Origin: Elusimicrobiota bacterium
Lineage (GTDB): Bacteria; Elusimicrobiota; Elusimicrobia; UBA1565; UBA9628
Reading direction: 5' to 3'
Assembly: GCA_026388095.1 (NCBI GenBank)
Contig: JAPLKL010000073.1
Coordinates: 1 to 57,816 of the forward strand
Length of the DNA: 57,816 nt
Part shown: positions 15,977 through 39,438 of the stretch, one piece after another
Position numbering within the stretch: the stretch's first letter is position 1
How the letters are laid out: each line of letters opens with the position of its first letter
The notes under the pieces: generated by a model
What the model saw: the letters and a program-made list of their open reading frames with translations, nothing else
Database searches by the model: none
What the model was told of the DNA's origin: nothing
Position numbers and translations under genes: made by a program

Positions 15977-16213
15977 CTAGCAGGCTGCTGATAAAGTCCG
16001 TTCTGCGAGCGCCCGGCGGCCGTCAGCCGGGCGCAACCGACCCGCGAAGCGGGGCGGCAGAACCCAGCCGATAGGTTGCACGAAGGATGGCGCCTTCGGC
16101 GCGACTGGCGAGCCTTCGGCTCGCCAGTTCGGGGACGGACTGTTGCCCGCTGCCGAAAGCACTGTGTCCGGACACAGTGCTTCCCGCTGGAGGGTTTATC
16201 AGCACCCTGCTAG
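15977..16213. mobile_element. CTAG-ended hairpin-array element 1 (237 bp, MITE-like)
   Basis: The 303-base gap between genes is mostly filled by this element. Its ends are 19-bp inverted repeats, left CTAGCAGGCTGCTGATAAA (15977-15995) and right TTTATCAGCACCCTGCTAG (16195-16213), matching at 18 of 19 positions. Inside are five hairpins in a row: 16009-16034, 16041-16053, 16090-16102, 16104-16128 and a perfect 26-bp palindrome at 16057 plus 100 (16157-16182). No ORF of note is inside. The right-hand CTAG supplies the TAG stop of the gene at 16210-17067. Element 2 at 38956-39438 shares the ends and internal words. A non-autonomous transposon or REP/BIME-like repeat is the likely nature. Confidence 0.75.
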
Positions 16214-38227: not shown

Positions 38228-38959
38228 ATGGCCACGCCCCGCAAGCTGCGCTGCACGGTGTCCGAGATCCTGGACCACGGGGACCGCGTCTATACGCTGC
38301 GCCTCAAGCCCGAGTTCCCCGCGCCGCGCTTCACGGCCGGGCAGTTCCTGCACTTGGCCATAGACCCTTACGACCCTTCCGCCTTCTGGCCGGATTCCCG
38401 GGTCTTCTCCGTGGCCAGCCCCCCTGACCAGCGGGACGGTCTGGAGATCCTCTATTCCGTGGTGGGGCGCTTCACGTCGCGCATGGAAGCGGAGCTGCGC
38501 GTCGGCAGCGAGGTCTGGGCCAAGCTGCCCTACGGGGAGTTCGTGGTGGCGGCCTTGCCGGGGACCGAGGCGGCGCTGCTCGCCGGCGGGACCGGGGTGA
38601 GCGCTTTCACGGCCTTCCTGCGGGGCTATGCCGCCTGCGGAGGCGACGACGGCTCGCGCGTCCACCTCTTCTACGGCGCCCGGCACCCGGGACTCCTGCT
38701 CTTCCGCGGGCTCCTGCAGCGACTCGCGCTGGCGCGGCCGACCCTCCGGGCGACGTTCTTCGCGGAGTCCGGAGCCGCGCCGGGACAGGGCGTGGAGCCG
38801 GGGCGGCTCTCTCTGGCCGCCGCCTGGTCCGCCCTGCAGCGGCCCGCCGCGGCCACCTACTACCTCTCCGGCCCGCCGGCCATGATCCGGGGGTTGGGCG
38901 CGGAGCTGGCCGCGCGCGGCATACCGCCGGAGCGGATCCGGGTGGACGCCTGGGACTAG
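38228..38959 (+). CDS. E3-type FAD/NAD(P)H reductase for the E1 dehydratase, lacking the ferredoxin domain
   Basis: 243 residues with ferredoxin-reductase architecture: an FAD-binding barrel (RVFSVASPP) followed by an NAD-binding domain (LLAGGTGVSAFTAF; YYLSGPPAMIRGL). It directly follows rfbH and is probably the reductase that feeds electrons to E1 (the RfbI/AscD role). Classical E3 is about 330 residues with an N-terminal plant-type [2Fe-2S] domain. That domain and its four cysteines are absent here, so another carrier may be needed. The TAG stop lies in the left CTAG of hairpin element 2. Confidence 0.8.
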   Translation: MATPRKLRCTVSEILDHGDRVYTLRLKPEFPAPRFTAGQFLHLAIDPYDPSAFWPDSRVFSVASPPDQRDGLEILYSVVGRFTSRMEAELRVGSEVWAKLPYGEFVVAALPGTEAALLAGGTGVSAFTAFLRGYAACGGDDGSRVHLFYGARHPGLLLFRGLLQRLALARPTLRATFFAESGAAPGQGVEPGRLSLAAAWSALQRPAAATYYLSGPPAMIRGLGAELAARGIPPERIRVDAWD

Positions 38960-39438
38960 CCGGCTGCTGACAGGCCCGCAAGAGCTCCGGGGCCGCATGC
39001 CGGTCCGTACCCGTATGCCAACTGGCCGGCCAGTTGATGCAAGAGGGCAGTCCTTCGAGGCCACTGTGTCCGGACACAGTATGGCCCAGGGTATGGACCA
39101 GGCGGATAGCTGACAGACCAGGCTCGGTGTCCCGCTTTGATCTCAGCCTGGCGCCTGATGCGCAGCATCAGGCGCAACCGACCCACGCATCCGCCCGTAA
39201 GGAAGTCGGGCAGGTGCCGTGCGTCCACAAGACACGGAAGCGGGTCGGCAGGACCGCTTCATCCCGACACGCCTAACGCTGTCTTCCCCGATAGCGCAAG
39301 ACCGGCAGGCCGCATTGTGCTGCTGCAAAAGACAGCAGAGCAAGAATGGTTCTGCCGCCCGGACACTTCGTGTCCGGGCGGTTGCGGGCGAGCAAAGCTC
39401 GCCCGCGAGCCAGACGGACATTCTCAGCGCCCAGCTAG
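38956..39438. mobile_element. CTAG-ended hairpin-array element 2 (483 bp)
   Basis: It fills the 475-base gap between two convergent genes. The left end CTAGCCGGCTGCTGACA (38956-38972) matches the end of element 1 at 15 of 17 positions; the right end TCAGCGCCCAGCTAG (39424-39438) matches at 13 of 15. Inside are palindromes/hairpins at 39019-39036, 39063-39080, 39151-39175, 39355-39381 and 39384-39406. Shared with element 1: ACTGTGTCCGGACACAGT, GCGCAACCGACCC after a GCGC hairpin, and GGTTCTGCCGCCC (inverted there). Both end CTAGs supply stop codons (rightward reductase, leftward methyltransferase). ORFs inside look spurious. Confidence 0.75.

Follow-up and report, generated by a model that had tools for sequence, protein, structure and literature searches.

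We showed that the CTAG ends of two hairpin elements in an Elusimicrobia contig coincide with the stop codons of flanking genes. It is very probable that elements 1 and 2 belong to a MITE-like, hairpin-rich, non-autonomous transposon with IS5/IS1182-type ends, which inserts at CTAG and survives at the stops of gene ends. The window, meaning the whole stretch of DNA analysed, is contig C73 (57,816 nucleotides) of a 4.6-Mb Elusimicrobia genome in 79 contigs.

Element 2 lies between two convergent genes, a reductase and a methyltransferase whose nearest named relatives are Elusimicrobia genomes (Table 1), and the sequence across it reads ...GGGA-CTAG...CTAG-CGCC. The initial annotation had placed the stops of both genes in the terminal CTAGs of this 483-bp element, and these coordinates proved right; element 1 also ends on a stop, as it had stated. 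Compared with shuffled sequence, element 2 folds far better on both strands (z about -8).

Table 1. Positions of the elements, their ends, the flanking genes and the interior features; positions refer to the window unless a locus (L) or contig (C) is given.
Feature	Position	Strand	Description
Element 1	15977..16213		Copy of the 237-bp core type with a CTAG at either end; the minus-strand gene on its right stops in the right CTAG
Element 2	38956..39438		Diverged 483-bp hairpin element, both CTAG copies included; family TIR at the ends
Left target CTAG	38956..38959	+	TAG 38957-38959 is the reductase stop; same CTAG stop without element in same-genus G001 (L162)
Right target CTAG	39435..39438	-	TAG 39437-39435 is the methyltransferase stop; relatives stop about 5 codons earlier with other stops
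CCC-type terminal inverted repeat, element 2	38956..38974	+	CTAGCCGGCTGCTGACAGG
GTCC-type terminal inverted repeat, element 2	39420..39438	-	CTAGCTGGGCGCTGAGAAT on the minus strand
NAD-binding oxidoreductase (reductase)	38228..38959	+	PF00175 NAD_binding_1, E = 1.7e-9; ends on left CTAG; orthologues stop at the same codon
Methyltransferase, 419 aa	39435..40694	-	PF13489 Methyltransf_23, E = 8e-28; ends on right CTAG; orthologues exist
Perfect palindrome around ACTGTGTCCGGACACAGT	39061..39082		Common to nearly all copies
Two-hairpin module A	39148..39260	+	GGCGCCTGATGC-GCA-GCATCAGGCGC-AACCG ... CGGCAGGACC; further hairpin pair lodged in the loop of the second hairpin
Two-hairpin module B, opposite orientation	39350..39412	-	GCGGGCGAGCTTTGCTCGCCCGC-AACCG-CCCGGACACGAAGTGTCCGGG-CGGCAGAACC; pairing kept across four different stem sequences
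Two-hairpin module, loci	Window 39148-39260, 39350-39412; L101, L106, L110, L111, L140, L144, L145		
Nested element of roughly 440 bp, loci	L081:4046-4732, L092:4099-4796, ends of contigs C10, C16, C18, C22, C23, C32, C46		

The genome was searched with element 2 and then with its terminal repeat, which gave about 33 copies of the family, 22 two-ended and 11 one-ended, the latter mostly cut by contig breaks. The copies are 235-698 bp long with hairpin interiors and no transposase gene, as is typical of a short, multi-copy MITE. The family core is 237 bp (element 1, e44 and e79b), and both ends carry CTAGCAGGCTGCTGATAAA, which continues as GTCC on one side and as CCC on the opposite one. In the genome self-search, the partners of element 2 were 81% and 76% identical, with many shorter matches in addition; element 2 belongs to an older, diverged branch of the family (81% identity to a copy on C69).

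Longer copies contained further insertions, and several hairpin loops held an extra hairpin pair. A nested non-coding element of roughly 440 bp, with the ends CAGAGCTGTCCGGGGAAA and TTTTCCCCGGACAGGAGTG, was found in e34, e63 and at several contig ends. It is placed in the TGTCCGGACA palindrome of the hairpin element and is flanked on both sides by GTCCGGAC, an apparent 8-bp duplication. The palindrome ACTGTGTCCGGACACAGT also occurred within the nested element and, by itself, close to genes of two relatives (L129 in G005 and L269 in G002), and may be a protein-binding site or the target of the nested element. In copy e39b (L084:3991-4449), roughly 90 bp were inserted (AAGCTGTGAAAAAAT...ATTTTTTCACAGCTT), apparently with duplication of 5 bp (CTTCG). 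Ends of the type GAAGCTGTAGAAAAAT, like those of the e39b insert, flank IS1182 copies in G039 and G063 (L250, L249).

The coincidence with stop codons was counted over 441 kb around the copies, and genes were called by a home-made codon-usage score of the frames entering the ends. At least one terminal CTAG, or a stop-keeping variant (CTAA/GTAG), was the stop of a gene in 19 of the 22 two-ended copies; when the contig-cut copies were added, a stop lay on a terminal CTAG in 25/33. CTAGs elsewhere in the same regions (n = 160) were located at stops (40), between genes (56) or inside genes (64). With the 22 full copies treated as independent insertions, the difference between 19/22 and 40/160 (25%) gave a Fisher p = 3.6e-8, and against the non-CDS CTAGs only (86% vs 40/96, 42%) p = 1.2e-4. 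The copies are not random relative to stops, and the frequency of CTAG in the studied regions is about 3-fold below Markov expectation. Convergent genes stop on both ends in three copies (element 2, e44 and e77b); gene calling counted two of them as double and overlooked the methyltransferase end at element 2, although this gene is a clear ORF and has orthologues. In our tally, CTAG was lost in 6/22 of the ends serving no gene, and 3/22 of the ends serving as stops were altered, all three still spelling a stop. The stop ends showed no apparent orientation bias. In other genomes, with the copies of this genome excluded, 11/14 coding ends were at stops; the remaining three were ends of an element abundant in G016 and enter genes in non-stop frames, which fits an enzyme aiming at CTAG and a host losing the carriers of harmful insertions.

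For comparison with empty sites, the copy flanks were searched in six same-genus genomes and the junctions were then compared. None of the compared orthologous gene ends in relatives carried the element, and for at least six occupied genes the gene of an element-free relative stops at the same codon in CTAG. The cleanest case was e29: in G001 one CTAG is the common stop of two convergent genes (proteins ending ...LARAAP and ...LRLAGD), and the element lies there in our genome, where the left gene is frame shifted and now stops 18 codons inside the element. A single CTAG was thus found with both flanks at the e29 empty site, and single-flank CTAG empties were found at six further genes. Relatives with a bare CTAG at the same codon were G001 for the left gene of e44 (ending ...GTCGACTAG), G006 for e77b, G003 for e7, and G001 and G003 for e79b. 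The left gene of e67 also has a bare CTAG end in G001 and G003, shared in G003 with the convergent neighbour. In G006, a bare CTAG was likewise found at the gene end that corresponds to e12. The reductase in G001, without element, ends ...GCCTGGGACTAG followed by CGCG (...GACGCCTGGGACTAG), while in G003 and G004 the stop is at the same codon position as TGA and GTAG, respectively; orthologous stops in some relatives were TGA, TAA or GTAG.

The single CTAG at the empty sites means that CTAG is the target and is present on both sides after insertion, and as CTAG has TAG on both strands, both convergent genes keep their stops. Insertion at CTAG targets formed by stop codons, one of two mechanisms offered in the initial annotation, thus agrees with both the same-genus empty sites and the family-wide count. 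A 2-bp TA duplication inside CTAG is indistinguishable from a 4-bp CTAG duplication; IS1182 captured by transposition gave 4-bp repeats (PMC3281130), and the 4-bp form is presumed here. In most copies the element does not provide the stops, which are instead a native CTAG stop now present in duplicate.

That element 2 provides both stops, as had been proposed, does not hold for the reductase, whose stop is ancestral, and is possible for the methyltransferase, which ends ...AVKEPERR where its relatives end ...AVKD or ...AVKE, about 5 codons shorter. The two genes face each other in G001 at a distance of 5.4 kb. Since the methyltransferase stop is apparently not ancestral and the genes are that far apart in G001, element 2 does not itself demonstrate one simple insertion event between them. 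At element 2 a deletion or rearrangement is likely. Of the two stops, that of the reductase is the one shown to be ancestral; that of the methyltransferase may have been supplied by the element.

The terminal repeat CTAGCAGGCTGCTGAAAAA was present in six other genomes of the order, and a reversed control pattern gave 0 matches. In G004 it is found immediately upstream of the start of an IS1182 transposase (NF033551, E = 4e-9), and in G024 it adjoins an IS1182 C-terminus. A near-identical repeat delimits, in G001, a 626-bp element that contains an IS1182 remnant and is placed between two gene stops. A close version surrounds an intact full-length element of Thauera (ends CTAACAGGTTGTTGA and CTAGCAGGGTGTTGA), so the TIRs are common to an autonomous member; its DUF772 + DDE_Tnp_1 transposase scored above the cut-off for the NCBI IS5 model and strongly, but below the cut-off, for IS1182. 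The IS1182 on two plasmids (L238, L241) have CAGACTGCTGACAAA in common, and L241 also has the same GTCC/CCC continuation. Because their ends match IS5/IS1182-type insertion sequences, the elements are most likely non-autonomous derivatives of this type. No autonomous partner with exactly the element's ends was found in this genome. Its intact IS1182 (C46), tested as the direct parent, has CTAG ends and a different repeat, CTAGGAGCCTGTCCGAGTAAT, and other transposase pieces are at contig ends. A RAYT/REP origin was rejected: the genome has two Y1 transposases, but the two-hairpin module was not found beside them. Only three matches to the terminal repeat came from viral contigs.

The hairpin cargo includes a two-hairpin module with the layout GCG-stem-CGC, an AACCG/CACCG linker, CCG-stem-CGG and then CAGAACC, which occurs in and outside transposons. 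It is present inside both family branches (twice in element 2, in opposite orientations), alone elsewhere in the genome, and in genus relatives. Over 21 modules, 188/189 pairs of the first stem (HP1) were kept across four different stem sequences, a pattern that is suggestive, not proof, of selection on module structure, the distinct stems being few. The CCCGTAAGGAA hairpin pair sits in the loops of hairpins in several copies and is found by itself as well (L070:4151, L081:4122, L086, L093, L115:3924, window 39194), and on C46 (L277) a similar hairpin, with GGCCGTAAGGAAATCC, is about 1.3 kb away from a RAYT-like gene for a Y1 transposase. The idea of an omega-RNA or ribozyme element was dropped when the copies turned out to form a transposon family whose ends are inverted.

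We propose that a transposase supplied in trans would insert the element at the palindrome CTAG, so that a CTAG then flanks it on either side. If the site is a C-TAG stop codon, insertion would rebuild the stop of the upstream gene with the protein unchanged, and where one CTAG is common to two convergent genes, each gene would get its own copy. With CTAG scarce and in-gene insertions purged by selection, surviving copies would gather at gene ends. Such selection would explain most of the bias, but maybe not all, as the excess over non-CDS CTAGs suggests; avoidance of promoters, or a genuine preference for the 3' ends of genes, may contribute as well. A bolder reading is that the lineage has effectively come to use stop codons as its specialised safe harbour, with a preference beyond purging and perhaps active 3'-end recognition, and with a cargo that may insulate convergent transcription; we regard this as speculative and rather unlikely.

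The second mechanism of the initial annotation was selection for ends that terminate reading frames; on this view the inverted repeat would give new stops to genes whose own were lost or displaced. Read inward, two of the three frames of the repeat do contain a stop (C TAG; CTA GCA GGC TGC TGA TAA), and the longer methyltransferase of element 2 and the shifted gene of e29 would both suit such a role. Nearly all other comparable genes, however, have the same stop position in element-free relatives, and the flanking genes stop at the TAG of CTAG, not at the TGA/TAA that lies farther inside. There is thus no need for selection of stop-forming ends, since insertion at C-TAG spares the protein; the empty sites largely refute it, and we consider it very improbable.

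An unlikely alternative, though less so than the preceding one, is that the elements are host-maintained bidirectional terminators or boundary RNAs between genes and not simply parasites. Their strong conserved hairpins, with stem changes on both sides in HP1, and their position mostly at gene 3' ends, in some cases between convergent genes, would agree with this. Occupancy is nevertheless not conserved among the relatives compared, element orientation is unbiased, no T-run typical of intrinsic terminators was seen at the element ends, and in a search of 4227 Rfam families the best score was far below gathering score. The mover could also belong to the IS630 family, which targets CTAG with TA duplication; the CTAG target and palindromic ends are compatible with TA duplication inside CTAG, but in G004, G024 and Thauera it is transposases of the IS5/IS1182 type to which this terminal repeat is physically joined. 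We rate this as the least probable of the alternatives.

An IS5/IS1182-type transposon directed to CTAG would represent a simple route to a harmless mobile element: the target word is avoided inside genes and used as a stop, and its duplication rebuilds that stop. The model predicts where such elements persist and accounts for convergent genes split by hairpin DNA, and the finding suggests that enzymes of the IS5/IS1182 type are CTAG-directed transposases. Literature searches turned up no report of CTAG/stop-codon targeting.

Among known systems, the IS1182 family (e.g. ISPse1 of Paracoccus, 4-bp direct repeats, PMC3281130) resembles the element in terminal repeat sequence and 4-bp duplication, and the plasmid-borne IS1182 of L241 has the same GTCC/CCC asymmetry; the hairpin element differs from this family in having no transposase gene, a hairpin array as interior and CTAG as target. 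The ends of the IS5/IS1182-type element on plasmid pTX1 of Thauera sp. K11 (L240:2410-3801) are like those of the hairpin element, but that element is autonomous and 1392 bp long. IS1182 in L239:2383-3966 (Aminobacter plasmid) and L238:2399-3931 (Sphingobium plasmid) lie between direct duplicates of GCGCTTGCGCGC or of an entire terminator-like hairpin, which suggests that other IS1182 lineages also settle at gene 3' ends via other palindromes. When IS1272 of Staphylococcus aureus, which has been described as a member of the IS1182 family, inserts, it takes the place of an inverted repeat of 21-85 bp without duplication (PMC5678879). It shares the transposase family and a palindromic target with the element, whereas here a 4-bp palindrome is kept on both sides; stem-loop replacement of the IS1272 type was rejected, as the empty sites show only CTAG with no extended hairpin. 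Bacterial MITEs (such as MITEAba12, PMC6382973) are likewise short and non-coding, with TIRs and many copies; compared with MITEs generally, the hairpin element sits on stop codons and its interior modules also occur alone.
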